Positions 4,036 to 32,505 of a DNA stretch of 32,576 nt are shown here, one piece after another (the first letter of the stretch is position 1; each line of letters begins with the position of its first letter). The notes beneath the pieces are model-generated. The model ran no database searches and had not been told where the DNA came from. It was given only the letters and a program-made list of their open reading frames with translations. The position numbers were made by a program, and so were the translations under genes. Source of the stretch: Desulfatibacillum sp. (GTDB lineage Bacteria; Desulfobacterota; Desulfobacteria; Desulfobacterales; Desulfatibacillaceae); NCBI GenBank assembly GCA_016342355.1, contig JAEINP010000052.1:1-32576 (forward strand), in the 5' to 3' direction.

Positions 4036-5793
4036 CTAATTCACTTCCATATATTGCGAAATTCTATGTTTGACGTCTTTCACCGCTTTGGGGTTTTTCA
4101 GTTGGATGGTAACCGCCCCGTTGGGACATGCAGTTGCGCAACGGCCGCATTTTCTGCAGATATCTCCGTGAACGGCCTTCCCGTTTTGGATGGTAATGGC
4201 GTCAAACGCGCAGGTTTCAATACAGGTCCCGCAGCCGACGCAATCGTCCGTCACATGGATTTCCAGCCCTTCCACAGGAGGCATCACCTGGTCCAGATGC
4301 TCCCCGGGCACATGCCTGAAATATCTCATCATGCAGCAGCAATGACAGCAAAAGCAGACACTGAGAAGTTTCTGGCGGTCCTTCACCAGAAAGATATCGT
4401 TATCAACCCGCACCTTTCCCGTCATGGGAACCAGGCCTGCCGAGATGGCCCGCTCCACATGGGCGTGCGCCTCCTCCCTGGTGACCTTGCGGCTGAGCCC
4501 CTTGGGCATGTCCAGGGCGGTTTCCCCCATGAAAAGGCAGCCCACGTCATGGGTATGGTTCTGGCAATTATGGGCGAACCGGCAGCCGCATTCATTCATG
4601 ACCACATGATGGGTTGATTCGTCGATGAATTGGTGAACCACCTCGGCGAGGAGCACTTCCTCCTGTGCGATAAGGTCTTGATTGATGGGCAAATAGGTCA
4701 TGCTGTTTTTTTTCGGGTCCATCCAGGGGGCTATCATTCTCAAGCCCGGAATGCTGAAAACCCTGAACAGATTGTGCATCAGACCCAGCCCAAATAGCGC
4801 GAGGGGCCTTTTTTTCAAAAGGAAGGTCAGGTATTTATGTTTTAACTTCTTGTTTTTGAATTGCCTTTGACGATCAAGATAGCTGGCAAAGGTCTCCTCG
4901 GATGAATATTTGGGTTCCCATCCGGTGGCGGCCCTAAACTTGTGGTTGTCCGAAAAAATGGTATGGCTGCTCACTTCCACCCAGCCCGAGCTCATTGGCA
5001 GCAGCCGGAGTTTGAAGGCGACATCAGCCATGGGCCTCAGAGCGAAAGCTGGCATGGGCGCAAGTTTCACCCCGGCCAACCGGAAGCACTTTCGAGCTGA
5101 CATGGCGTCGTTGGCGCCTACATTGTATATGCCGGAAAGATCGTGAATCAGGCAGAGGTACATGGCTTCGCCCAAATCATCCTCATGCACAAAATGGATG
5201 TGGGGACTGGCGCCCACGGCCATGGCGCTTACCTTGGACGAAAACACTTTGGAGAACATATTGTTAATATTGGGGCCAAAAACCAGGGCTGGCCGCAAAA
5301 TGGTAAAGGTGATTTCCGGATGATCCGAAAAAAATTCCCGGGCAAAGGACTCCACCTGAATTTTGCTGGTGTTATAATAGCTCTTTTCGTTCCGATGGAG
5401 GGGGCTTTCCTCATTTTGGTACAGGGGGCTTTCGGGGTGCGCGCCATAGGCGGTATTGCTGCTGATAAAAACGACCTTTTTGACCCCGTTATCCAAACAG
5501 GCGCGGAAAACATTTTTCGAGCCTTCAATATTGATGTCAAGGGTTTGAGACTTGTCCTGGATTTCATTAACAATGAAGGCAAGATGATAGACAACGTCAA
5601 CACCTTGCAATATCCCGGTAATGGCTTCACTGCGGATATCCTCCCTGAAAAAGGAAACCTTGCCTGATCCTCCCCTCCATGGCGTGACATCAATTCCTAT
5701 GATCCTGTCAATGTTCTGATCCGCATCCAGCCTTTTCAGCAAAGGAGCGGCGATATAACTGTTTATCCCGGTCACAGCAACGGTCATGCCCAT
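4036..5793 (-). CDS. Extended SDR (NAD-dependent epimerase/dehydratase) fused to Cys-rich and 2x[4Fe-4S] ferredoxin domains
   Basis: Residues 1-310 form an extended short-chain dehydrogenase: N-terminal Rossmann strand VAVTGINSYIA, SSNTAYG, and the catalytic YxxxK as YNTSK (Tyr140, Lys144). The glycine-rich turn is atypical (TGINSYIA in place of TGxxGxxG). Residues about 320-490 contain two further cysteine clusters: ECGCRFAHNC...GC (402, 404, 410, 419) and CFCCHCCC (480-487). Residues 515-560 are a bacterial-type ferredoxin with two CxxCxxCxxxC motifs (518-528 and 546-556). I took the ATG at 5793, which has AGGAGG seven bases upstream; an upstream alternative start adds 19 residues. It heads the operon and is divergent from the AraC regulator. 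Coupling of NAD(P)(H) chemistry to FeS electron transfer, possibly to the adjacent OYE protein, is inferred. Confidence 0.85.
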   Translation of the reverse strand: MGMTVAVTGINSYIAAPLLKRLDADQNIDRIIGIDVTPWRGGSGKVSFFREDIRSEAITGILQGVDVVYHLAFIVNEIQDKSQTLDINIEGSKNVFRACLDNGVKKVVFISSNTAYGAHPESPLYQNEESPLHRNEKSYYNTSKIQVESFAREFFSDHPEITFTILRPALVFGPNINNMFSKVFSSKVSAMAVGASPHIHFVHEDDLGEAMYLCLIHDLSGIYNVGANDAMSARKCFRLAGVKLAPMPAFALRPMADVAFKLRLLPMSSGWVEVSSHTIFSDNHKFRAATGWEPKYSSEETFASYLDRQRQFKNKKLKHKYLTFLLKKRPLALFGLGLMHNLFRVFSIPGLRMIAPWMDPKKNSMTYLPINQDLIAQEEVLLAEVVHQFIDESTHHVVMNECGCRFAHNCQNHTHDVGCLFMGETALDMPKGLSRKVTREEAHAHVERAISAGLVPMTGKVRVDNDIFLVKDRQKLLSVCFCCHCCCMMRYFRHVPGEHLDQVMPPVEGLEIHVTDDCVGCGTCIETCAFDAITIQNGKAVHGDICRKCGRCATACPNGAVTIQLKNPKAVKDVKHRISQYMEVN

Positions 5794-5891
5794 GTGGAGA
5801 TCCTCCTGTCCCAAATTTTGACTTGTTTTATCTGCCAGCTTGACAGACAAAGTTTCAAAAAGTATCTGTTATGAGTGAAATGCCTTCTGTC

Positions 5892-5975
5892 TGACATTTT
5901 GAACACTTGGTCAATATTACTAATCCAACGGGCAATTTCTGTGAATGATCGAATGGGACTAATACTTGACATTTT
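5892..5975. promoter_or_regulatory. Candidate AraC-type regulator operator: TGACATTTT direct repeats in divergent intergenic region
   Basis: TGACATTTT occurs at 5892-5900 and again at 5967-5975 in the same orientation, 75 bp apart, within the 218-bp space between the fusion gene (minus strand) and the AraC-family gene (plus strand). Direct-repeat operators in a divergent spacer are usual for this regulator class. The match is only nine bases, so this is a suggestion. Confidence 0.35.
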
Positions 5976-6011
5976 CGGCCAACTCCCATGGGGAGAGGGC
6001 GCCAAAAACCC

Positions 6012-7031
6012 ATGAATCCACTGCACGAAATCAGAAGGCCGATCCCCTGCGTCTATCCCATTTTACGTTTCGCCATTGACAAGGGAATCGGGAGCGCCTC
6101 CCTGCTGGAAGGGACCGGTCTGGAGGAAAAGGACCTGCTGGACCCCAGAAAAGATATCAGCCTGGACCAGGAGCTTTCCATCATTCGCAATCTGATAACC
6201 CTGGCGCCGGAGCCGGAAATCGCCTGGGAGCTTGGGGGATATTTCAACGCCAGGGCTCACGGGGCGTTGGGCAGTTTGGTGGCCACGGCCCCCACCATAG
6301 GCCAAATCATTTATTCAATCATTGAATATATTACAATATCAAATAGTTATTTTAGATTGCATTCGGAATCAAAAGGAAAGGTGCTCCGGGTTTTTCTCAT
6401 GGAGAACCATATTCCCGGGGATCTTCTTCCTTTTTTGGTGGAACGGGATCTGGTGGCCGGAAAAACCACCATAGATAACCAGTTGCCCGGGAAAATCGAC
6501 GAGATCGTGCTGGGAGTTTCCTTTGGTTACGCGCCCAGGACAGACATGGAAAAGTACCGGAAAGTCTTTGTGAAGAATGTGGCTTTCAATCAGCCCATGA
6601 CCGTTATCGATGTGGATCAATCCGCCTTGAGCATGCCCATAAACCAGGGCAATCCCAGGGAATTTGAACTGTTTCGCCAGCAGTGCCAGGCGGAAATGGC
6701 CTTGCGGAGCAAAGAGTTTCTTTTTCTTTCTGACAGGATCAGGCTTTGCCTTCAGGCGGAAAACGGGCGCATTGGATTGGAACAAGTGGCAAGCCAGCTA
6801 AGCATGAGTGAGCGCTCTTTAAGAAGGCATCTTAAAAAGGAAGGAATCAGTTTCAGGGCGATCAGAAATCAGTATTTTTTTCAACAATCCCTGAATTTGC
6901 TCAGAAACCCCAAGTTGCAGATCGAAGAAATCGCCGACATGTTGGGATACAGCGAGCCAAGCGCCTTTAGCCGCGCCTTTCAAAAATGGGCGGGCATTCC
7001 CCCGGGGGAATACCGGAAAACTGTTCTGTAG
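6012..7031 (+). CDS. AraC-family transcriptional regulator (arabinose-binding-like N-terminal domain)
   Basis: The 339-residue protein has an N-terminal domain of the Arabinose_bd/OruR type (about residues 15-200, including WELGGYFNARAHGALGSLVATAPT) and a C-terminal AraC helix-turn-helix pair (about 255-335). The first recognition helix lies in LEQVASQLSMSERSLRRHLK, and the second carries the family motif IADMLGYSEPSAFSRAF followed by W-x-G-x-x-P-x-x-Y-R. An in-frame ATG at 5988 would add eight residues; I prefer 6012 because GGGGAGAGGG lies between the two. Members of this subgroup sense small organic or fatty compounds. It is divergent from the SDR-ferredoxin/OYE/SRPBCC operon and is its likely regulator. 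Confidence 0.88.
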   Translation: MNPLHEIRRPIPCVYPILRFAIDKGIGSASLLEGTGLEEKDLLDPRKDISLDQELSIIRNLITLAPEPEIAWELGGYFNARAHGALGSLVATAPTIGQIIYSIIEYITISNSYFRLHSESKGKVLRVFLMENHIPGDLLPFLVERDLVAGKTTIDNQLPGKIDEIVLGVSFGYAPRTDMEKYRKVFVKNVAFNQPMTVIDVDQSALSMPINQGNPREFELFRQQCQAEMALRSKEFLFLSDRIRLCLQAENGRIGLEQVASQLSMSERSLRRHLKKEGISFRAIRNQYFFQQSLNLLRNPKLQIEEIADMLGYSEPSAFSRAFQKWAGIPPGEYRKTVL

Positions 7032-7091
7032 GAATTTTTCCTCCGCAGAAACCTCAGTGCAGTCGTTCTCTCTTGATGGACAGTCCTAACT

Positions 7092-8261
7092 TTACTGGCC
7101 CTTTTCTTCATCGCCATAGATAGTGAATTCGGGATAATGTTTTTTGGCGCAAACCGGACAGATGCTGTGGGTCAGTTCGGCGTTGGAATGATCCTTGATA
7201 TAGGCTTCCAAACGGTTCCAGTAGCCCTGGTCGTCCCGGATGCTTTTGCAATGGGAGCAAATGGGCAAAAGCCCCCGGAGGGTTTTCACCTCGGAGAGGG
7301 TTTTCTGCAATTCGGCGATTAGCTTGTCCCGCTCCTGCTCCGCCAGCTTTCTTTGTTCGATTTCCTGCTGGGCATGGGTCAGTTCCACTTCAATCTCAGC
7401 CACCTGCCGCAAAATGGCCAGAACAGGGCGGTTTTCAATAACAATGCCCTTTTGCGTGTTTTGCCAATACAGGTAGCCGTATAAAAAAGGAAGGGCGAAC
7501 AGGGAGATGACAAACCGGCTTATAAGCGTTCCCTGGATGATCCCCCAATAGTGGGGCGTTCCTGCAAAAGCGCCTGTGGCGAATAGAATCACGTCCAGCC
7601 ACATGACTCCCAACAGGGCGCCAAAGGCGCGGAGCCATAGCTTGCTGCTCATGCCCGGCTTGCCTAAATACTCCCAGGCGATGCCCAAAAAGATCAAATC
7701 AATCAGAGTGGTTATTATCGAGGCCGTGTTGGTTCGAAAACTGGGCAGGGGGATGTAAGAAAGCGGGTCTCCGCCCATCAAGGCCATCTGGAAATGCAGC
7801 GCTATTGCTATCACAGGCGCCAATATGGAAACCCCGGCCACCGTGGAAATGGCGATGCGCGTGGCCCTGGGACCGTCAAAAACATAGACCACAAAAACCC
7901 CCAGGAGCAGGGAAGTGTAAAACACCGTGGACCCGATGACAAAGGTAAGCCCGCCCACCTGGACGCTGATCCCGGCGTCCGTGACCCAGGACATGATGGC
8001 GGTTATCCCGCCGATAACTGCATAAAAAGGCACCGGTCCGAACCTGTGGCGCAAGGAATGGGCCCACAGCACCAGAAAATACACCACCATGGCCTCAACA
8101 ATCAGAATAACGACTTCGTTTCCCATAATCTCCGACTTTGTAAAACCAACCTGCAAACAGCCAATATTGCCAAATATTTTTAAAGCAATGTCCGTGCCGC
8201 TTTTCCCATTTGGCGGTTTTTTTCTGCACTGGCCAAGCCCCGCCTTCATCGCGGATATCAT
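7092..8261 (-). CDS. Multi-pass membrane sensor-like protein with coiled coil and C-terminal CxxC...CxxC module
   Basis: The 389-residue protein has a hydrophobic part of about six or seven membrane segments (residues about 45-275), a charged coiled coil (about 285-335, QQEIEQRKLAEQERDKLIAE) and a tail with LLPICSHCKSIRDDQGYW and SICPVCAKKHYP. This paired-CxxC tail is known as a C-terminal module of many deltaproteobacterial PAS, receiver and GGDEF proteins. Here it follows a membrane domain directly, without a kinase or cyclase. The membrane part looks similar to VUT/YhhQ-type proteins, but I am not sure. The ATG at 8261 has GGGAGG seven bases upstream; an internal ATG just before the first membrane helix has a closer, weaker site. 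A Fur/PerR-like box lies 40 bp upstream. A sensing role is inferred. Confidence 0.65.
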   Translation of the reverse strand: MISAMKAGLGQCRKKPPNGKSGTDIALKIFGNIGCLQVGFTKSEIMGNEVVILIVEAMVVYFLVLWAHSLRHRFGPVPFYAVIGGITAIMSWVTDAGISVQVGGLTFVIGSTVFYTSLLLGVFVVYVFDGPRATRIAISTVAGVSILAPVIAIALHFQMALMGGDPLSYIPLPSFRTNTASIITTLIDLIFLGIAWEYLGKPGMSSKLWLRAFGALLGVMWLDVILFATGAFAGTPHYWGIIQGTLISRFVISLFALPFLYGYLYWQNTQKGIVIENRPVLAILRQVAEIEVELTHAQQEIEQRKLAEQERDKLIAELQKTLSEVKTLRGLLPICSHCKSIRDDQGYWNRLEAYIKDHSNAELTHSICPVCAKKHYPEFTIYGDEEKGQ

Positions 8262-8300
8262 CCCCGAGCCTCCCTTATCATACCTTCCTTGATTTTTAAA

Positions 8301-8315
8301 TGATAATGATTATTT
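8301..8315 (+). promoter_or_regulatory. Fur/PerR-type box in divergent promoter region
   Basis: TGATAATGATTATTT is a 7-1-7 inverted repeat of the Fur-superfamily type. It matches the minus-strand reading of the box before the Fur/PerR gene (11575-11589) at 13 of 15 bases. It lies between the divergent genes at 8261 (minus) and 8398 (plus), just upstream of a possible plus-strand -10 hexamer TATAAG at 8320-8325. Confidence 0.7.
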
Positions 8316-8397
8316 TTCATATAAGTGGACTGGGGTTTAAAACCCACGACAAGACCAAAGTCCTAACCAGGAAGGCTTGAGCCAGGAGGTAAGTCTC

Positions 8398-8733
8398 ATG
8401 AAAAACCAATTGCAGGATGTATTCAAACATATCGGCGCCGAATACGCGGGAGAAATTTTGCGGGATTCCGGCTATTTGCTGGAAGTGGATGTTTCCGGAA
8501 AGGCAGATAAACTGGGATATGGAGACGTGGCGGAAAAATACCGCGGAGTCAGTGCCTTTGTTCCTTTAAAAAACTCAGCTCCGGGCATGAAGGTCATGTT
8601 TGACGGACGGGGATTCTCCCGTTACGCCCAGTTTGAATCCGGGGTGGTGGCGCCCGAACACGTGGCTCGTGATGCCGACTTGCCCCACAAGGATTTTGAA
8701 CCCCACGACAGCATGGTCCGCATCATAGGGTAA
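8398..8733 (+). CDS. Hypothetical protein, putative Fur/PerR regulon member
   Basis: The 111-residue soluble protein starts at the ATG at 8398, which has AGGAGG eight bases upstream; an in-frame upstream start would add seven residues without a ribosome site. I do not recognise the family. It has no signal peptide, membrane helix or cysteine. The C-terminal half is rich in Gly, Pro, Asp and His (FDGRGFSRYAQF, then PHKDFEPHDSMVRIIG), which could bind a metal, but this is speculative. A Fur/PerR-type box lies 82 bp upstream, and the catalase and its regulator lie downstream on the other strand, so a role in oxidative stress or iron response is inferred from context only. A hairpin follows the stop. 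Confidence 0.7.
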   Translation: MKNQLQDVFKHIGAEYAGEILRDSGYLLEVDVSGKADKLGYGDVAEKYRGVSAFVPLKNSAPGMKVMFDGRGFSRYAQFESGVVAPEHVARDADLPHKDFEPHDSMVRIIG

Positions 8734-8768
8734 CGAAATAGTGTTGGACAAAATGATTGGAAGAGAAA

Positions 8769-8802
8769 GGGCGGCGTTTCAAATTGCATGGAAACGCCGC
8801 CC
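8769..8802. terminator. Hairpin between convergent genes, probable bidirectional terminator
   Basis: A perfect 12-bp stem, GGGCGGCGTTTC with GAAACGCCGCCC, and a 10-base loop lie between the stop at 8733 (plus) and the catalase stop at 8869 (minus). The following T-runs are short on both strands, so efficiency is uncertain. Confidence 0.65.
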
Positions 8803-8868
8803 CTTATATGTTGCTTAATCATCGGTTGAGCATGCAGGATATTCCCCGTCTGGAGAATGCCCTGATTT

Positions 8869-11558
<2,690 letters not shown>

Positions 11559-15749: not shown

Positions 15750-17675
15750 ATGGCTTCACCATTTTACATAACAACCCCTATATATTACGTAAATGCCCGT
15801 CCCCATCTGGGCCATGCCTACACCACCATCGTGGCCGATGTTGCCAGGCGGTATCATGCCTTAAAGGGACAGGAAACCTATTTTCTCACCGGCACGGATG
15901 AGCATGGCGACAAAGTGGTGGAAGCCGCCCAAAAGGAAAACAAGGAAACACGGGACTATGTGGACATGATATCCGCCCTGTTCCGCAACCTGTGGCCCGA
16001 GCTCCTGGTGAGCAACGACCAATTCATCCGCACCACAGACCCGGAGCACATCCAGGTGGTCCAGGATGTCCTGCAAAAAATTTACGACAGTGGCGACATC
16101 TACTTTTCCGAGTACGAAGGCCTCTACTGCTTTGGATGCGAACGTTTTTACCTGGAAAGGGAACTGGTGGACGGAAAATGCCCGGACCACGAAACAGAGC
16201 CCAAGCGCATCAAGGAATCCAACTATTTCTTTAAAATGAGCAAATACCAGGACTGGCTCATCAACCACATAAAGAATAATCCCGGATTCATCCGCCCCCA
16301 ACGGTACGCCAATGAGGTTCTTTCCTTCCTCAAGGAACCCCTGGAAGACCTGTGCATCTCACGGCCTAAAACGCGCCTGACATGGGGCATAGACCTTCCC
16401 TTTGACGACAAGTACGTCACCTACGTCTGGTTCGACGCCCTGCTCAATTATGTTTCCGCCGTAGGATATCCTGATGGGGAAAAATTTCAAAAATTCTGGC
16501 CGGGCGTACAGCATCTGGTGGCCAAGGACATCCTCAAGCCCCATGGAATATACTGGCCCACCATGATGAAGGCCGCCGGCATTCCCGTTTACAACCACCT
16601 CAATGTGCACGGCTACTGGAACGTGGCTGAAAGCAAAATGTCCAAAAGCCTGGGGAACGTGGTGGAACCCCTGGACCTTGCCAAAAAATACGGGGTGGAG
16701 GCCTTTCGCTATTTTCTGCTGCGGGACATGACTTTCGGACTGGACTCCAGTTTTTCCGAGGAAGCCCTGGTAGGGCGCATCAATTCTGACCTTGCCAACG
16801 ATCTGGGCAATCTCTTTTCCCGGGTAATCTCCATGGCCCATAAGTTCTGCGACGGAAAGGTTCCCTCAGACCACCCGGACCTGGCCTTTGACTCGGACTG
16901 GAAACTTTCGGGCAACGCCATGGAGACCGTGGAAGCCTATGACGTGGCCATGGAAGAATTCCAGTTCCATAAAGGTCTGGCCGCCGTGTGGGAGTTCATA
17001 AGCCGCATGAACAAATATGTGGACTTTACCTCCCCGTGGGTCCTGGCCAAAGACAAGGCTTCCGCCGCCCAACTGGAAGCCGTCATGTACAACCTCCTGG
17101 AAGGCCTGCGTCTTGTGGCCGGGCTGGTGTGGCCCGTCCTGCCTGCCGCAGCCGAAAAAATGGTGGAGCATCTGGGGCTGAACAAGGACGAATTCCTGAA
17201 GGACCCCGAGGCCTTGTGTCAATGGGGAGTCTTGAAGCCCGGCACGCCTTTACAGAAAGCCGTCACCTTGTTTCCCCGGATTGATGTGAAAAGCCTCCAG
17301 GAAAAGGAGCCGGAAAATACAATGACCCCCAAAGTCCCGGAGCTCAAACCGGAAATCGATATAGAAACCTTTGCCAAGGTGGACCTGAGAGTGGGCACGG
17401 TCGTGGAAGCCCAGGCTGTCCCCAAGGCCAACAAACTCCTTCAGCTTACCGTGGATCTGGGTGAAGAAGAACACCGTACCGTGGTTGCGGGCATTGCCAA
17501 GGCTTTCAAGCCGGAGGAACTGGTAGGCAAACAGGTCCTTGTGGTGGCCAACCTCAAGCCTGCCAAACTCATGGGCATCGTTTCCCAGGGCATGGTGGTG
17601 GCGGCCGTGGACAAAGAGGTCATTGGCCTGGCAACCGTCAACACACCGGTTCCTCCTGGAACCACCCTGCGCTAA
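15750..17675 (+). CDS. metG: Methionyl-tRNA synthetase with C-terminal tRNA-binding (EMAP-like) domain
   Basis: The 641-residue enzyme charges tRNA-Met. It has the class I HIGH motif as HLGH (residues 19-22), a partial zinc knuckle (CFGCERFY...KCPDH), and KMSKS (KMSKSLGN, near residue 297). The C-terminal domain (about 536-641, VDLRVGTVVEA...) is the OB-fold tRNA-binding module that also makes the enzyme dimerise. The start at 15750 has GGAGG just upstream and fits the family N-terminus; a longer frame upstream overlaps ricT in another frame and is not coding. It is followed by two bases and then the penicillin-binding protein gene. Confidence 0.97.
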   Translation: MASPFYITTPIYYVNARPHLGHAYTTIVADVARRYHALKGQETYFLTGTDEHGDKVVEAAQKENKETRDYVDMISALFRNLWPELLVSNDQFIRTTDPEHIQVVQDVLQKIYDSGDIYFSEYEGLYCFGCERFYLERELVDGKCPDHETEPKRIKESNYFFKMSKYQDWLINHIKNNPGFIRPQRYANEVLSFLKEPLEDLCISRPKTRLTWGIDLPFDDKYVTYVWFDALLNYVSAVGYPDGEKFQKFWPGVQHLVAKDILKPHGIYWPTMMKAAGIPVYNHLNVHGYWNVAESKMSKSLGNVVEPLDLAKKYGVEAFRYFLLRDMTFGLDSSFSEEALVGRINSDLANDLGNLFSRVISMAHKFCDGKVPSDHPDLAFDSDWKLSGNAMETVEAYDVAMEEFQFHKGLAAVWEFISRMNKYVDFTSPWVLAKDKASAAQLEAVMYNLLEGLRLVAGLVWPVLPAAAEKMVEHLGLNKDEFLKDPEALCQWGVLKPGTPLQKAVTLFPRIDVKSLQEKEPENTMTPKVPELKPEIDIETFAKVDLRVGTVVEAQAVPKANKLLQLTVDLGEEEHRTVVAGIAKAFKPEELVGKQVLVVANLKPAKLMGIVSQGMVVAAVDKEVIGLATVNTPVPPGTTLR

Positions 17676-17677
17676 GC

Positions 17678-18988
17678 ATGGGGACCGAGAAACCGGAAAT
17701 AGAACAGCGCGGAGTGTCCTGGCGTAATTATCAGGCGACTCTTAAACGCAGGCAGGAAACCAGGCGCATAGGATGGTTTGCTCTCAAGTGGGCCTTTGGC
17801 CTGACCCTGGCGGCCACGCTGGCGGTGGGCATTGTCCTGGGAGTGACGGAATTATCCCCCCGTCTGAAGGAAAAGGAACGGGTTCCTCCCATTGCAATGC
17901 GGTCCAAGGCCCAGGTCCGGGAGCTCATGCAAGGGCAAAAATTGTGGCAGGTGGCCGAAGAGCCCCCGGCAATCACCCGGGATGGGAAGACTTACGAAAT
18001 CACCACCACCCTGGATCTGGAATTCCAGCGCCATATGCTCAAGGTCCTGGACCCCACCCATGCCAGGGCCATCGCCTTTGTGGCAATGGAGCCGGAAACC
18101 GGCAAAGTCCTGGTCATGGCCGGTATTCACAAGGACCCGGAGGCAGGCAATCCCTGCGCCCAGGTTTTGTTCCCGGCGGCCAGCGTCTTTAAGATGGTCA
18201 CAGCCGCGGCTGTCTTGGATTCCAAGGGCCTCACCCCCCAATCTCCCGTGAAATATAATGGGAAAAAGCATACGCTGTATAAATCCCAGCTTGAAAACAG
18301 GGACAACAAATATACCCGCCATATTACCCTGGGGGAGGCTTTTTCCGACTCCATCAATTCCGTGTTCGGTAAGATTGGCAATCAGGTGGGCAGTGAAGCC
18401 CTTCTGACCAAGGCCGTGGACATGGGTTTTAACGGGGACCTGGGCCTGGAATGCGCCTTCAGTCCCAGCCAGATCATCATGCCGGAAGACGCCTATGGCG
18501 TCGCGGAGGTCGCCTCGGGGTTCAACCGCGGCACCAGGATCACAGCCATGCACGGGGCGGCCATGGCCTGCTCCGTCGTCAACGGCGGCCTCCTGCCCGA
18601 GCCCTATATCGTGGCTTCCGTTGAAAATGAGGAATCGCAGATAGTTTACGAAGGCCGCCTTACCCCCATGGGTCAGGCCATGACGGAGAAGGCAAGCCAG
18701 GACCTGCAGGAAATGATGGTCAGCGCCGCATTAACCGGCACAGGCAAGGGGTCCTTTGGTAAAAGGGAAAGGGGCAGAGCCCTGAAAAATATTGTGGTGG
18801 GAGGCAAAACCGGTTCCATCAATCACGACACCGAGTACGACATCCGGTATGACTGGTTTGTGGGTTTTGCCCACGACCAAAAAAATAAAAAAGCATTGGC
18901 CTTTGCCGCCATCGTGGCCCACGAAAAATTCATTGGAAAAAAGGCCGGGGACTATTGCAAGGAAGCCATCAAATACTATTTCAAGTGA
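17678..18988 (+). CDS. Penicillin-binding protein, transpeptidase domain only
   Basis: The 436-residue protein has a cytoplasmic basic N-terminus, one membrane anchor (about residues 33-56) and a periplasmic transpeptidase domain with all three active-site motifs: SxxK as SVFK (Ser169), SxN as SIN (225-227) and KTGS (377-380). The usual N-terminal dimerisation domain of class B PBPs is nearly absent, so it is short compared with PBP2 or PBP3 (about 600 residues). It should crosslink peptidoglycan or act as a carboxypeptidase-like transferase. Its start is two bases after the metG stop, so it belongs to the same operon. Confidence 0.9.
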   Translation: MGTEKPEIEQRGVSWRNYQATLKRRQETRRIGWFALKWAFGLTLAATLAVGIVLGVTELSPRLKEKERVPPIAMRSKAQVRELMQGQKLWQVAEEPPAITRDGKTYEITTTLDLEFQRHMLKVLDPTHARAIAFVAMEPETGKVLVMAGIHKDPEAGNPCAQVLFPAASVFKMVTAAAVLDSKGLTPQSPVKYNGKKHTLYKSQLENRDNKYTRHITLGEAFSDSINSVFGKIGNQVGSEALLTKAVDMGFNGDLGLECAFSPSQIIMPEDAYGVAEVASGFNRGTRITAMHGAAMACSVVNGGLLPEPYIVASVENEESQIVYEGRLTPMGQAMTEKASQDLQEMMVSAALTGTGKGSFGKRERGRALKNIVVGGKTGSINHDTEYDIRYDWFVGFAHDQKNKKALAFAAIVAHEKFIGKKAGDYCKEAIKYYFK

Positions 18989-23520: not shown

Positions 23521-23548
23521 TTGACTTGGTTGCAGGTTACAATATTAT
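23521..23548 (+). promoter_or_regulatory. Predicted promoter of the glycyl radical enzyme gene
   Basis: TTGACT (23521-23526) and TATTAT (23543-23548) are separated by 16 bp, 39 bp upstream of the ATG at 23588. Each hexamer is one base from consensus. The following leader is AT-rich and ends in a strong GGGGGGAAG ribosome site. Confidence 0.65.
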
Positions 23549-23587
23549 TCCAACAAATTTATAACAACCATACAGGGGGGAAGTTTT

Positions 23588-26554
23588 ATGGTCAAGGCTG
23601 TCAAGGCGGAATTTGGTATTAGGGCGTTTAGGATGTCCCTTAAAATGCTTGCCCTGTTGTTCAGGGTCAGCCCGGCTTTTCGCAAGGAGATCTTAAACAA
23701 GGAAACGGGCTTTGTGTTCAATGCCCGGTATCAGTTTTCCACAAGGGACGACAAGGTCCACGTATTTTTGATTATCAATGAGGGAAAGGTGCGTACTGGC
23801 TGGGGAACCATTTCCAACCCGGATGTGACCATCTATTATAAGGACAAGGAAACCATGGCCCGGATTTTTTCCAAAAGTCCGGAAGAATCCCTGGACTATC
23901 TGCTCAGCAACGAAATGTCCTACACGGGCAATATGTCCTTTCTCACCCGGTTTTCCTACATCACCACCCTTGCCAACAACTTATTGGCGAAAAAAAAGGA
24001 AGTCCCTCAAAACAAGCTGTTCGCCCCAATCCGGGATATTGATAAGGGCGAAAAACGCCGCAAGATCCAAAACGAAATCCTGGATAAAAAGGTGGATGCG
24101 GTGCAGTTTCTGGAGGACCCCTACCTGGGCAGGATCACCCTGGAGGATTTTCCACGCCTCAAACGCTTGAAAAACAAACGCTTCTCCACCAAACCGGCAG
24201 TGTGTTCGGAACGAGCCAGGCTGCTGACCGAATTCCATAGGAAAAAGGGTTTTGAAACCGATCAAAGCGGCGCGCCCTGGCATCCTGGCCTGCGCCAGGC
24301 CCTTGCCATGAAGCACATCATGACCCATAAATTGCCCGTCATCACCGATGGCCAGCTCATGGCCGGATCCACCACCACCAAGGAGGTGGGCGTCCCTGTG
24401 TATCCCGAGCTTATCGGCACCACCATCTGGCCCGAACTCTCCACCATCGGAGACCGGGAACTCAACCCCAACGATTTGAGCCCGGAAGAAGCCCGTATTC
24501 TCAACTTTGAGGTATTCCCCTATTGGATGACCCGCAACGTACGGGAATACTGCCGCACTCAATTCGGCAACCCGGTTTCCCAGCAATTGGAAGAACGCTT
24601 TGTTTTATACTTCATGATGAAGAACAACGCCATTTCCCACACCATCCCGGATTTCAGGAAAGTGGTGGAACAGGGCCTGGAGTCTGTCCGCAAGGAGGCG
24701 CAAACCAAGGAAAAAGCAGCCACCGACCCGGATCAGATCCTCTTTTACCGCTCCTTGCGGGCCGCCGTGGACGGGGTGCTTACTTATGCGGAGAATCTCA
24801 GCCAGGAGGCCCTGAGGCAGATCGCCACCATGGACCCGGAAGACCCGGATCAGGCGACACGCATAGGGGAATTGAAAAAAATCGCCCAGGTGTGCGGTAG
24901 GGCGCCTGCCAAGCCAGCCCGGACCGTGTACGAAGGCCTGATGGCTATCTGGATCAGCTTTGTATGCCTGCATGTGGAAAACGCCAACTCCGCTCTCTCC
25001 ATAGGCCGGTTGGACCAGATTCTACAGCCCCTTTTGGAAAAGGAAATGGCCAAGGTCAAGACCCCCAAAGGCAGGGAAAATGTGGTTCGGAGAACCATCG
25101 AGCTTGTGGGCAGCTTTTTTCTAAAACTCAATGACCACGACCCCCTCATGCCCAGCGTGGGCAACAAGCTGTTCGGGGGCAGTTCGTCGGACGATACCGT
25201 CACCGTGGGCGGGGTAACCCCTTCGGGCGAAAACGCCGTCAACGACATGAGCTATATTATCCTCAAAACGGCGGAAATGCTCTGCTTCCAGGACCCCAAT
25301 CTGAACGCCCGGTATTATTCAGGCATCAATTCCCCGGAATACCTGCGCCGTTTGGCCGAAGTGAACATCAATATGGTGGCGTCACCCAGCATCCATAACG
25401 ACCAGGCCATGATAGAAGCCCTGACGCATCAGGGCATTCCCTTGGAGGACGCAAGGGACTGGGGTGTGACAGGCTGCGTGGAGCCCACCATTGTGGGGAA
25501 GCATTACGGCCACACCAACTGCATGCTGGTGAACATGGTGGCTGCCCTGGAAATGGCCCTGAACAACGGGGTGCATCCGGTTATGGGCGACCTGATAGGT
25601 CCCCGCACCGGGGATGCCACCCGGGACTTTCCCGTTTACGAGGATTTTCTTGCCGCCTATAAAAATCAACTCAAATACCTGTGCGACATGTCCGTGGAAA
25701 TCAACAATTATCTGGGCAGGGCCCATCAGTACATCCATCCCACCCCGGTGCTTTCGGCCATGAGTACAGGCCCCATGGAAAGCGGCAAGGACCTCATCGA
25801 CGGGGGCGCAATGTACAATTCCTCAGGCGTGGCTATGGTTTCCCTCACAGACGTGGTGGACAGCCTCATGGTCATCAAAAAGCTCATATACGAGCAAAAG
25901 GCCCTGGATTTTCCCACGCTGTTAAATGCCCTGGAATCAGATTTTGAAGGACAGGCGAATGTAATCCACACTCGGGTGAACCGGATTCCCAAGTTCGGCT
26001 CCGGGGACGAGGAAGCCATTGACATAGCCCGGGACCTCATAGATTTTTGCTACGACCAGTATATACCCCAGAAAAATTACCGGGGCGGCAATTACTGGCC
26101 CGGATTCTGGTCCATCAGCTACCATGTGGGCTTTGGCATGCTTTCCGGGGCTCTGCCTTCAGGCAGGAAAAAAGGCAAGGCTTTCACGCCGGGCCTCACG
26201 CCTGCGCCGGGCTCGGCGGATCAGGTTTTGCCAAACATCCGTTCCGTGGCTGCCCTGGACCACTTGAAAATGCCCAACAACATCGCCTTCAACGTCAAGC
26301 TGGCTCCCCATGCCGGGGATACCCACGCCAAAACCCTGGACTATTTCACCAGCTATCTCCAAAGTTATTTTGACCTGGGGGGTATGCAGTGGCAGTTTAA
26401 CGTACTCACTACGGATATGCTCAGGGACGCCATGGACAATCCCGAGGACTACCGGTGGCTCATCGTGAGGATTTCAGGCTACAATGCCTATTTTGTCAAG
26501 CTGAACAGGAATATGCAGGAAGAACTCATAGAGCGGACCGAGTTCACCGGGTAA
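23588..26554 (+). CDS. Glycyl radical enzyme (PFL-like) with N-terminal SCP2-like domain, substrate unknown
   Basis: The 988-residue protein has two parts. Residues about 1-135 resemble an SCP2 sterol-carrier-like domain (VHVFLIINEGKVRTGWG, NPDVTIYYKD, then LDYLLSNEMSYTGN). Residues about 195-988 are a complete glycyl radical enzyme: catalytic Cys630 in GVTGCVEPTIVGKH, the VGGVTPSGENAVNDMSYI region, SIHNDQAMIEAL, and the radical loop RISGYNAYF with Gly964, 25 residues from the end. The GCVE context is that of the dehydratase/C-N/C-S lyase group, but the residues after it (PTIVGKHYGHTN) lack the PGKTEGWHD seen in glycerol dehydratase-like members. The lipid-type domain suggests a hydrophobic substrate. 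The gene has its own promoter, and no radical-SAM activase is in the window. The reaction cannot be named. Confidence 0.93.
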   Translation: MVKAVKAEFGIRAFRMSLKMLALLFRVSPAFRKEILNKETGFVFNARYQFSTRDDKVHVFLIINEGKVRTGWGTISNPDVTIYYKDKETMARIFSKSPEESLDYLLSNEMSYTGNMSFLTRFSYITTLANNLLAKKKEVPQNKLFAPIRDIDKGEKRRKIQNEILDKKVDAVQFLEDPYLGRITLEDFPRLKRLKNKRFSTKPAVCSERARLLTEFHRKKGFETDQSGAPWHPGLRQALAMKHIMTHKLPVITDGQLMAGSTTTKEVGVPVYPELIGTTIWPELSTIGDRELNPNDLSPEEARILNFEVFPYWMTRNVREYCRTQFGNPVSQQLEERFVLYFMMKNNAISHTIPDFRKVVEQGLESVRKEAQTKEKAATDPDQILFYRSLRAAVDGVLTYAENLSQEALRQIATMDPEDPDQATRIGELKKIAQVCGRAPAKPARTVYEGLMAIWISFVCLHVENANSALSIGRLDQILQPLLEKEMAKVKTPKGRENVVRRTIELVGSFFLKLNDHDPLMPSVGNKLFGGSSSDDTVTVGGVTPSGENAVNDMSYIILKTAEMLCFQDPNLNARYYSGINSPEYLRRLAEVNINMVASPSIHNDQAMIEALTHQGIPLEDARDWGVTGCVEPTIVGKHYGHTNCMLVNMVAALEMALNNGVHPVMGDLIGPRTGDATRDFPVYEDFLAAYKNQLKYLCDMSVEINNYLGRAHQYIHPTPVLSAMSTGPMESGKDLIDGGAMYNSSGVAMVSLTDVVDSLMVIKKLIYEQKALDFPTLLNALESDFEGQANVIHTRVNRIPKFGSGDEEAIDIARDLIDFCYDQYIPQKNYRGGNYWPGFWSISYHVGFGMLSGALPSGRKKGKAFTPGLTPAPGSADQVLPNIRSVAALDHLKMPNNIAFNVKLAPHAGDTHAKTLDYFTSYLQSYFDLGGMQWQFNVLTTDMLRDAMDNPEDYRWLIVRISGYNAYFVKLNRNMQEELIERTEFTG

Positions 26555-31170: not shown

Positions 31171-32505
31171 ATGCAAAAATGCGTTCGTGGAAATGCTTCA
31201 TTTGAATTTCAGGCCATGTTCTTCCCGATCATTGTTGGGGGCGCCATCCTGGCTGTTTATCAATTTTTTTTGAATCGAAGTTTATGGTTGGATGAAGCCT
31301 CGTTGGCTTTAAATATCATCAACAGGGATTTTGCCGGGCTTGCCAGGGCCTTGGACTATAATCAGGTCGCGCCAATAGGTTTTTTATTTGTAGAGAAATT
31401 GTTGGTTATGGCGTTTGGCGAAAATGAATTGGCGCTAAGACTTTTCCCCCTGGTCTGTTTTTTGGCCTCCATACCTTTCTTCTATTTATTTTCCGAAAAA
31501 CTGGTTGAAAACCATGTCATTGCGCTTATGGCTACAGCGATTTTCAGCATAGCATGGTCGATTTTGCGGTATTCATCCGAGGTCAAGCAGTATTCAACAG
31601 ATGTCCTATTTGCTATCGTTATTGTCTATTACCTATTGCATCTGAAAGTGCTGAATAACCGGTCCCTTGTCATTTTTGCGGTTTTTGGGGGCATTGCCCT
31701 ATGGTTTTCGAATACTGCGATAATAATGCTTTTTATTTCTGGTGTTTACTTGATGTATTTTGAGTTGCTCCGGAAAAAGAGCTTCAAAATATTATCCATC
31801 TTAATGCTTTGGGCTGCTTCGTTCTCCATCTACTATTTTTTCTTTATCCATAACCACCCGACCCGGGCATTCATGGCAACGTACTGGGGGAATTCATTTT
31901 TGCCGCTAAATCCGTTTGCAACGAAATTTTACATATTTTTATTTTCTTCAACAAAGGATATATATGCATATCTGCTAGGTTTCGGACCTTTTTGGTTTAT
32001 CCCGGCAACAATTTCATTAAGCGCTATCGGTTTTTTATTGTATCAAAAAAAGTATATTGTAATATATTTCTGTTTAGCACCCATGTTTATCACACTTTTC
32101 CTCTCTGCTTTCCATTTGTATCCTTTTTCAAGAAGGCTTCTGTTATTCATTTTACCGCAAATAATAATTATTTATTCAATTGGGCTGTATAACCTATTTC
32201 AGCTCATTAAAAGCAAATTGCCGATATTGCCCGTTGTTTTGTTGATACTGCCAGTTATAATTATGTTTTATCCGCTATATTTGCAATTTACACGGGACTT
32301 TGACGAAGTAAAGGATAGTTTGGAGTACATGGAAAAAAACATTCAAAAAGATGAATCTATTTACATTTATTATGGATCTAACAGGGCTTTCGAATTCTAC
32401 GAAAAAACAGGCGCGGTGAAAATTCTTAATCCAATAGTCGAAGGGTCATGCCACCGTGATGAAAATTTCAAGTATGATCAAGAGCTTTTAAATCTAAAAG
32501 GATAG
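31171..32505 (+). CDS. Membrane glycosyltransferase-like protein, GT39/PMT type, possibly truncated at its C-terminus
   Basis: The 444-residue protein has about ten hydrophobic helices and the loop signature of ArnT/PMT-type transferases: FLNRSLWLDEASLALNI, with the Asp-Glu pair in the first external loop, and a conserved RYSSEVKQYSTDVLF segment in the second. Such proteins move sugar from a polyprenyl carrier to lipid or protein at the membrane. The ribosome site at 31171 is weak and an internal Met16 is possible. The gene is clearly more AT-rich than its neighbours, consistent with transfer. It stops right after DQELLNLKG, where I recall that relatives continue with a short Arg-Val-Trp-like beta strand; a frame-shifted RARFFL follows, so a small C-terminal lesion is possible. 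Confidence 0.72.
   Translation: MQKCVRGNASFEFQAMFFPIIVGGAILAVYQFFLNRSLWLDEASLALNIINRDFAGLARALDYNQVAPIGFLFVEKLLVMAFGENELALRLFPLVCFLASIPFFYLFSEKLVENHVIALMATAIFSIAWSILRYSSEVKQYSTDVLFAIVIVYYLLHLKVLNNRSLVIFAVFGGIALWFSNTAIIMLFISGVYLMYFELLRKKSFKILSILMLWAASFSIYYFFFIHNHPTRAFMATYWGNSFLPLNPFATKFYIFLFSSTKDIYAYLLGFGPFWFIPATISLSAIGFLLYQKKYIVIYFCLAPMFITLFLSAFHLYPFSRRLLLFILPQIIIIYSIGLYNLFQLIKSKLPILPVVLLILPVIIMFYPLYLQFTRDFDEVKDSLEYMEKNIQKDESIYIYYGSNRAFEFYEKTGAVKILNPIVEGSCHRDENFKYDQELLNLKG

Follow-up and report, generated by a model that had tools for sequence, protein, structure and literature searches.

A glycyl radical enzyme fused to an SCP2-type domain in Desulfatibacillum: candidate member of an undescribed subfamily that may act on hydrophobic substrates

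A gene of Desulfatibacillum sp. raises the question of why a glycyl radical enzyme (GRE) should carry an SCP2-type domain at its N-terminus, and on which substrate such an enzyme might act. As judged from the open reading frame, its translation and its homologues, the gene (23588..26554, plus strand, as are all features below) codes for a protein of 988 amino acids; it is part of a stretch of 32,576 nucleotides which was analysed as a whole and is referred to as the window. The original prediction of a complete GRE held: the protein comprises a PFL-like catalytic domain (residues 190–850, 24155..26137; Pfam PF02901, E 1.6e-161) with the catalytic Cys630 (25475..25477) in a GCVEP motif, and a C-terminal glycyl radical domain (residues 866–970, 26183..26497; PF01228, E 2.8e-23) with the radical-bearing Gly964 (26477..26479) in RISGYNAYF, and thus shows the PFL-like domain, the catalytic cysteine and the glycyl radical motif that define the superfamily. 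Upstream of the gene, a consensus scan found a sigma-70-like promoter match (TTGACT-16-TATTAT, 23521..23548) agreeing at 10 of 12 consensus positions, with six such sites in the region as compared to a mean of 3.5 in shuffled sequences, and a G-rich stretch at 23575..23583, read in the sequence, resembles a ribosome-binding site. The genes nearest to the SCP2-GRE gene in the window include those of TrmO, a 5'-nucleotidase, an RNase-H-like protein, CheZ and a GGDEF protein; they were rejected as operon or functional context, the nearest genes being common only to the window and the D. alkenivorans locus L013.

Proof of an SCP2 domain by sequence comparison was abandoned. Residues 1–145 scored 19.5 bits (E 0.0013) against PF02036, below the curated cut-off of 21.3; SCP2 was absent from the Pfam matches of the whole window protein at E ≤0.01; and a profile search of the PDB with the N-terminus returned SCP2 chains only at E 0.75–0.92, ranked below designed proteins and an endolysin. 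N-termini of 13 of 18 family members matched SCP2 at E ≤1, the best at 1.7e-5. The fold was decisive. An AlphaFold model of residues 1–190 had a mean pLDDT of 71, with 10-residue blocks of 79–92 for residues 11–90, but of 62–63 for residues 91–110, and low confidence in the linker (residues 136–189, 23993..24154). Foldseek searches with this model gave UbiJ-SCP2, SCP2 and alkylsulfatases as top matches (E from 2.2e-6), and VIA-align superimposed it on the sterol carrier protein 8af3 (Z 12.5 on the DALI scale, 112 residues, 2.5 Å), on human SCP-2L (6z1x, Z 12.3) and on the domain of human MFE-2 (1ikt, Z 11.6). Residues 1–135 (23588..23992) are thus clearly predicted to adopt the SCP2 alpha/beta fold, and the SCP2-type N-terminus of about 135 residues claimed from the sequence pattern stands on the fold, with Pfam sub-threshold. 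The joint between SCP2 and GRE is real, given that the D. alkenivorans protein is 89% identical over residues 1–986, that dN/dS values are 0.105 in the SCP2 part and 0.056 in the GRE part, and that dozens of loci share the architecture. The remark that GREs are rarely fused N-terminally was fair, but the case is not unique, since in a deposited 1150-residue chain of choline lyase the GRE part spans residues 363–1145.

The SCP2-GRE family was found in Desulfobacterota (37 of 297 genomes of this host phylum), in Bacillota and in Asgard archaea including Lokiarchaea, the spread in the latter two groups being taken from a species-genome scan alone. The scan yielded 25 loci, 20 of them in metagenome-assembled genomes of Asgard archaea. 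Of ten stretches with a stand-alone SCP2 gene (taken from 14 such matches), seven had a co-directional GRE match no more than 1 kb away, and L133, found through the GRE search, is an eighth locus of this kind. A quick tree set the fused forms apart from 24 reference GREs as one clade, with a sister clade of forms whose SCP2 domain is encoded separately next to the GRE, and split and fused forms grouped together with an SH-aLRT of 100; with SH-aLRT as its only support measure and several long branches, the tree is usable for the family clade and the subdivisions within it rather than for the exact place of the family among GREs. It omits L027 (partial), the broken L082 GRE together with L035, L037 and L091 (all <700 aa), one of two C33 GREs and L101 (both hidden by longer antisense open reading frames), and L122–L133 (fetched later); L028 is labelled as fused, but the start of its contig cuts the gene and its N-terminus was not seen. 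Because members were picked by a fused or adjoining SCP2, the presence of SCP2 in members is to some degree a product of the selection. Less affected by this was a query of 30 genomes with the whole protein: 19 matches covering about 900 residues or more showed 39–100% identity and started at query residues 1–52, whereas frames of conventional length (about 790–940 aa) matched at 34% or less; between both groups were fragments in G297, G298, G300 and G301 and the split, broken locus of G312. The domain architecture and a shared ancestry of the fused and the split proteins are thus established computationally. The claim of an uncharacterised GRE class also held up: the protein did not cluster tightly with any of the 24 reference GREs whose substrate is known, and it scored far below the cut-off of every NCBIfam equivalog. 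No description of an SCP2-GRE fusion was found in the open-licence literature searched, an absence that carries little weight, and the excerpted text of a report on Asgard GREs (PMC8163825) does not mention SCP2.

No activase gene was detected in the window, in agreement with the original prediction, but this does not extend to most relatives: a matching activase is encoded within 3.5 kb of the family GRE in 37 of 57 related loci, and the family has an activase lineage of its own. The host has one activase of this lineage outside the window, which is located on contig C127 (C127:4049-4966) beside a paralog and probably serves the window enzyme in trans. The activase of L018 scored best against the HypD activase model, at 305 bits (cut-off 425). 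Copy counts within 3.5 kb, compared with those in the more distant parts of these loci (330 versus 374 kb), were 37 versus 0 for the activase, 18 versus 0 for TetR, 11 versus 2 for aldehyde:ferredoxin oxidoreductase (AFOR), 7 versus 0 for short-chain dehydrogenases (SDR) and 5 versus 3, hardly an enrichment, for acyl-CoA synthetase; in these counts, from which L122 was omitted as a copy of L017, many loci belong to closely related organisms, the neighbour profiles derive from those same loci, and the background is the remainder of the loci rather than, for AFOR, Asgard genomes at large. The clades differed in their partners: AFOR occurred in 8 of 25 loci of clade A and 3 of 32 of clade B, TetR in 1 and 17, and SDR in 0 and 7 of them. 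DUF6765 and a lipoprotein-like family were confined to split loci, and three AFOR-bearing loci encode GlpK and an MlaE lipid permease 3.6–4.6 kb away. None of the partner families was found near the SCP2-GRE gene in the window or in D. alkenivorans.

As a full-length AlphaFold model was poor (pLDDT 58) and was set aside, the active site was read from an alignment of 49 family members with 24 reference GREs only. Cys630 and Glu632 (25481..25483) are present in all 49 members, His351 (24638..24640), which aligns with His164 of glycerol dehydratase, is present in 47 and missing in two, and Gly964 is conserved in 48 of 48, the 49th sequence ending before it. Glu632, at Cys+2, occupies the general-base position of eliminating GREs. 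Since glutamate at Cys+2 also occurs in 18 and histidine at the His351 site in 11 of the 24 references, the pair marks a chemistry and not a substrate. The Glu632 and His351 sites are Ser and Tyr in the host GREs presumed to be alkylsuccinate synthases and Ser and Arg in PflB, while both CutC sequences have Asp where the family has His351. Of the residue set of glycerol and propanediol dehydratases (His281, Asp447, Glu435, His164; the first two bind the polyol), the window protein keeps Glu435 and His164, but has Ser468 for His281 and Asn644 for Asp447; in the family, the His281 site is mostly Ser, Ala, Met or Thr, and the Asp447 site is always Asn, Gly or Ser. Trp841 is found in 49 of 49 members versus none of the references.

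We lean, by a small step beyond even, towards a reading in which both parts hold: the window protein belongs to an undescribed GRE subfamily marked by an SCP2 domain, as N-terminal fusion or adjoining gene, and works as an eliminase by radical chemistry, with SCP2 presenting a hydrophobic substrate that bears a hydroxyl group and with an aldehyde or ketone as the product. A radical-SAM activase would generate the Gly964 radical, which would be transferred to Cys630, and SCP2 would pick the poorly soluble substrate from a membrane or micelle and hand it to the barrel. The cysteine thiyl radical would abstract hydrogen at the carbinol carbon, with Glu632 accepting the hydroxyl proton, whereupon the neighbouring C–O (or other C–X) bond would break and the leaving group be protonated by His351. 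Further conversion of the aldehyde or ketone might fall to AFOR, as an oxidation, or to an SDR, and an acyl-CoA synthetase might in some organisms activate the product for beta-oxidation. Our guess at the likeliest substrates is hydrophobic vicinal diols or 1-O-alkylglycerols, met in the breakdown of lipids or ether lipids; D. alkenivorans is described as rich in alkyl glycerol ethers in PMC11150832. A bolder version, in which the family acts as a radical lipid lyase on intact lipids or long-chain alkyl glycerols that SCP2 draws from the membrane, seems to us unlikely. The hydrophobic substrate of the original prediction remains plausible in view of the SCP2 partner and some lipid-type neighbours, but its hydrocarbon variant, by fumarate addition, is disfavoured by the retention of Glu632 and His351.

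Alternatively, SCP2 might be a structural or docking module for membrane anchoring, assembly or radical protection, and the GRE might convert a small and polar molecule, for instance a diol or an amino acid. UbiJ, whose SCP2 domain is among the best Foldseek matches, is an accessory factor, and since SCP2-type domains also serve in protein assembly, as in UbiJ, substrate delivery is not the sole role conceivable here; the top PDB matches moreover include enzymes named glycerol dehydratase, HypD, diol dehydratase and choline lyase, whose substrates are small and polar. The changed polyol-binding His and Asp sites and some lipid-type neighbours (MlaE, acyl-CoA synthetase) speak against a small polar substrate, and we consider this explanation doubtful.

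A fumarate-adding enzyme of the alkyl- or benzylsuccinate synthase type, with the hydrocarbon delivered by SCP2, appears improbable. The other host GREs C88 and C34, to which we apply the name alkylsuccinate synthases, would fit the setting, and 8iof, labelled as a benzylsuccinate synthase alpha subunit but outside the tree, scores 354 bits as a match and carries a Glu at its Cys+2 position. However, C88 and C34 are on a separate long branch with Ser and Tyr instead of the family's Glu and His, and TutD/BssA (4pkc, 184 bits) and MasD (9o8u, 232 bits) are far weaker matches; with the reference names presumed and 8iof outside the tree, neither the grouping nor the residues at the Cys+2 and His164 sites place the protein among these synthases. 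The structure 2f3o of Archaeoglobus PflD, with the family's Glu and His, is among the nearest references, and in PMC8163825 alkylsuccinate synthase (Ass) activity is suggested for this protein, and Asgard GREs resembling it are read as Ass/Bss. That the Asgard GREs include the SCP2-GRE family suggests caution in reading them as hydrocarbon-activating. A steroid- or hopanoid-type polycyclic substrate in place of an acyl or alkyl lipid is very unlikely: the presence of SDR and 3-beta-HSD/epimerase-type genes in the vicinity of some members of clade B (L127; L090, read by eye) and one adjoining TetR matching FasR, FadR and KstR models weakly and far under their cut-offs would fit, but SDR families are broad, and in Lokiarchaea the family has AFOR and CrtI-like genes as neighbours, while the annotated part of those loci showed no recognizable steroid gene.

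To our knowledge, characterized eliminating GREs act on small polar molecules; a GRE subfamily with a lipid-carrier-type partner would extend eliminating radical chemistry to membrane-type substrates. The occurrence of the fusion in a Desulfatibacillum relative, in Asgard archaea and in other anaerobes suggests an undescribed anaerobic breakdown of lipid-like molecules. If a radical lipid lyase were indeed involved, ether lipids or lipid diols would be opened without oxygen by a route common to Asgard archaea and sulfate reducers. Anaerobic breakdown of alkyl ether lipids is, as far as we know, an open question, for which the family supplies a gene, a likely activase and testable residues.

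Among known systems, the B12-independent glycerol and propanediol dehydratases (1r8w, 5i2a) share the PFL-like barrel, the GCVEP loop, the Cys+2 glutamate and the His164 equivalent with the family, and 1r8w is the best single-sequence PDB match of the window protein (377 bits); the family differs by the changed His281 and Asp447 sites, an invariant Trp at the Tyr640 site, the added SCP2 domain and its separate clade. PFL2/PflD of Archaeoglobus fulgidus (2f3o) has Glu and His as in the family, is the best profile match (460 bits) and groups with the family and the host GRE C22 (SH-aLRT 81, a weak grouping with long branches), but its chain of 776 residues lacks SCP2. Trans-4-hydroxyproline dehydratase HypD and choline lyase CutC are eliminating GREs; the window protein scored 412 bits against the HypD model (NCBIfam NF043068, cut-off 1100) and 406 bits against that of CutC (TIGR04394, cut-off 1050), which has Asp for His351. 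According to PMC12441222, YbiW and PflD of E. coli open anhydro-sugar phosphates by a glycyl radical, which we read as C–O ether cleavage, a cyclic ether being opened next to carbinols. These anhydroglucitol/anhydromannitol 6-phosphate GREs keep Glu and His as in the family, but act on polar sugar phosphates, form separate branches and are of conventional length (810 and 765 aa). On the SCP2 side, MFE-2 and the alkylsulfatases are carriers of SCP2-type domains that act on fatty or alkyl substrates; chains of the alkylsulfatases Pisa1 and SdsA1 match the N-terminal model at Z 11.1–12.2 and the MFE-2 domain at Z 11.6, while the catalytic domains and the chemistry of these enzymes are unrelated to those of the GRE family.

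The gene at 23588–26554 on the plus strand of the Desulfatibacillum window is an open reading frame of 988 residues. Ahead of it, a promoter-like site is found at 23521, followed at 23575 by a G-rich stretch resembling a ribosome-binding site. Pfam places a PFL-like domain at residues 190–850 and a Gly_radical domain at residues 866–970, and Cys630 in GCVEP and Gly964 in RISGYNAYF are found where the original prediction had put them. The neighbouring genes are all located on the opposite strand; those upstream code for TrmO and a 5'-nucleotidase, those downstream for an RNase-H-like protein and CheZ. A 444-aa ORF at 31171–32505 (+) matched neither Pfam (E ≤ 0.01) nor NCBIfam (E ≤ 0.001) profiles.

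From sequence alone, assignment of the N-terminal domain (residues 1–135) to SCP2 is borderline. Its Pfam score of 19.5 bits is below the cut-off of 21.3, an SCP2 match at E ≤ 1 was obtained for 13 of 18 members (best 1.7e-5), and a PDB profile search retrieved SCP2 chains at E 0.75–0.92. The predicted fold is clearly that of SCP2. The AlphaFold model, based on 21 sequences and less confident at residues 91–110 (62–63), comprises helices 2–27 and 29–35, strands 46–52, 58–64, 67–72 and 80–84, helices 87–93 and 98–106, strand 110–114, and helix 116–137. Best Foldseek matches were UbiJ-SCP2, SCP2 proteins of archaea and animals, and alkylsulfatases. VIA-align gave Z 12.5 (2.5 Å, 112 residues) against sterol carrier protein, 11.6 against the SCP-2-like domain of human MFE-2 and 11.1–12.2 against alkylsulfatases, as compared to about 6 for Eis acetyltransferase rows. 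The proposed fusion of an SCP2-like domain to a complete glycyl radical enzyme (GRE) is thus borne out by structure prediction. The SCP2 domain is under purifying selection, with dN/dS towards D. alkenivorans of 0.105 (0.056 for the GRE part), values which are rough due to high dS.

Some genomes encode SCP2 as a stand-alone protein of 141–181 aa. Ten of the 14 clear stand-alone matches from the profile search of the host phylum were examined, and seven of these (L077, L078, L079, L080, L082, L085 and L086) have a same-strand GRE gene within 1 kb, broken into two ORFs in L082. L084 is a 3.6-kb contig bearing an activase, in L083 the SCP2 gene adjoins a GRE remnant of 84 aa, and no GRE was seen in the stretch of L081 examined. 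An eighth split case, L133, was reached via a GRE search. In a tree of 73 rows, the 43 rows labelled fused form one group (SH-aLRT 100) and six split rows another (SH-aLRT 99); together, these 49 rows are set apart on a long stem (SH-aLRT 100) from 24 reference GREs, so that tight clustering with a GRE of known substrate was not observed among these references. Fusion in one clade and co-encoding in its sister clade are good evidence that the SCP2 domain works with the GRE. Split loci also contain uncharacterised partners absent from the fused loci searched, namely DUF6765 proteins (L079, L080, L083, L085, L133) and a lipoprotein-like family (L077, L078, L079, L082, L085, L133).

SCP2-GREs are a family rather than an accident. 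A species-genome scan yielded 25 loci with best-segment identities of 58–89%, 20 from Asgard archaea (Loki-, Jord- and Njordarchaeia) and five from bacteria (Desulfatibacillum, Desulfobacterales, a 'Proteobacteria' MAG and two Bacillota); every carrier genome except Desulfatibacillum is a MAG. Among 297 genomes from the host phylum, 37 matched the N-terminal profile, including the host's own and three with weak matches (E 3e-5 to 1.3e-4). In the host genome, Gly_radical was matched 12 times, once by a short frame. Three of these matches belong to SCP2-fused GREs, on the window and on contigs C127 (44% identity) and C31 (42%), and eight to further GREs on C22, C33, C34, C35, C46 and C88. Both GREs on C33 have GCVY in place of GCVE at the catalytic Cys.

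An activase gene is located within 3.5 kb of the GRE in 16/25 loci of clade A and 21/32 of clade B, the two sets used for neighbour counts; among the nine clade A loci lacking one, L027, L029, L035 and L037 are contigs ending inside the GRE. Activases from fused and split loci, 34 in all, cluster as a single group (99), separate from activases of other GREs. Searched with the clade A activase profile, the host activase on C127 scored 381 bits and the other five, which adjoin other GREs, at most 286. The C127 type also includes the activase encoded near the GRE of L015, a clade A member, which supports the C127 activase as the putative activator of the window enzyme in trans.

Cys433, Glu435, His164 and Gly763 of glycerol dehydratase align with Cys630, Glu632, His351 and Gly964, which are conserved in 49/49, 49/49, 47/49 and 48/48 members, respectively. 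In place of His281 and Asp447, the window protein has Ser468 and Asn644, and both positions vary across the family (Ser 23, Ala 14, Met 4, Thr 3, other 5; and Asn 36, Gly 8, Ser 5). Trp841 and Lys345 occur in all 49 members, versus 0/24 and 1/24 references. The Glu at Cys+2 and the His are not special to the family, as 18/24 and 11/24 references share them. This residue pattern fits an elimination in which the leaving group is adjacent to a carbinol, but with a different binding pocket, and eliminase chemistry is likely. Fumarate addition, as by Ass/Bss, appears improbable: in the host GREs on C88 and C34, presumed alkylsuccinate synthases, Ser and Tyr replace the family's Glu and His. However, PDB entry 8iof, labelled benzylsuccinate synthase alpha subunit, matches the window protein with 354 bits and shares the Glu at Cys+2, which slightly raised our estimate for fumarate addition and slightly lowered that for our main reading of a radical eliminase with a hydrophobic substrate. 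Hermodarchaeota GREs, 33–38% identical to Archaeoglobus PflD, have been interpreted as Ass/Bss (PMC8163825).

Within 3.5 kb, clades A and B differ in AFOR (8/25 versus 3/32), TetR (1/25 versus 17/32), SDR (0/25 versus 7/32) and acyl-CoA synthetase genes (1/25 versus 4/32), counts that include many closely related loci and rely on profiles derived from the same loci. Compared with farther parts of these loci, activase, TetR, AFOR and SDR are strongly enriched, and acyl-CoA synthetase barely (5 near, 3 far). AFOR adjacency occurs in Lokiarchaea, Syntrophomonadaceae (L029) and the Desulfobacterota family f41. In L094, L095 and L106, AFOR is followed by a 4Fe-4S protein, and genes of MlaE and glycerol kinase (named in L094 or L095, otherwise assigned by cluster) are located 3.6–4.6 kb from the GRE. 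Seven Lokiarchaeal loci contain a CrtI-like flavoprotein and a flavin/2Fe-2S reductase, identified in L018 and assigned by cluster elsewhere. L018 has two copies of this pair, with a CrtI/carotenoid-isomerase-like flavoprotein in each (7016–9816 and 15850–18656), one on either side of the SCP2-GRE and its activase. In L127, a 624-aa fusion of an epimerase/3-beta-HSD-type and an SDR domain (5381–7255, minus strand) is encoded two genes from the SCP2-GRE. These partners are best explained by an aldehyde or ketone product that would then be oxidised and activated with CoA, while the association with SCP2 suggests that the substrate is hydrophobic. We somewhat favour a radical eliminase acting on a hydrophobic hydroxylated substrate presented by SCP2.

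Mono- and dialkyl glycerol ethers are abundant in D. alkenivorans (PMC11150832; reportedly also PMC5552659). Using a glycyl radical, YbiW and PflD form 1-deoxyfructose 6-phosphate from the 6-phosphates of anhydroglucitol and anhydromannitol (PMC12441222), and we regard this as a precedent for C–O ether cleavage. Because of these ether lipids and this precedent, 1-O-alkylglycerols or long-chain vicinal diols are our lead guess for candidate substrates. No NCBIfam equivalog came near its cut-off with the window protein, and no description of an SCP2-GRE fusion was found by title or abstract in the literature searched. The SCP2-GREs represent a new subfamily within the known GRE superfamily.
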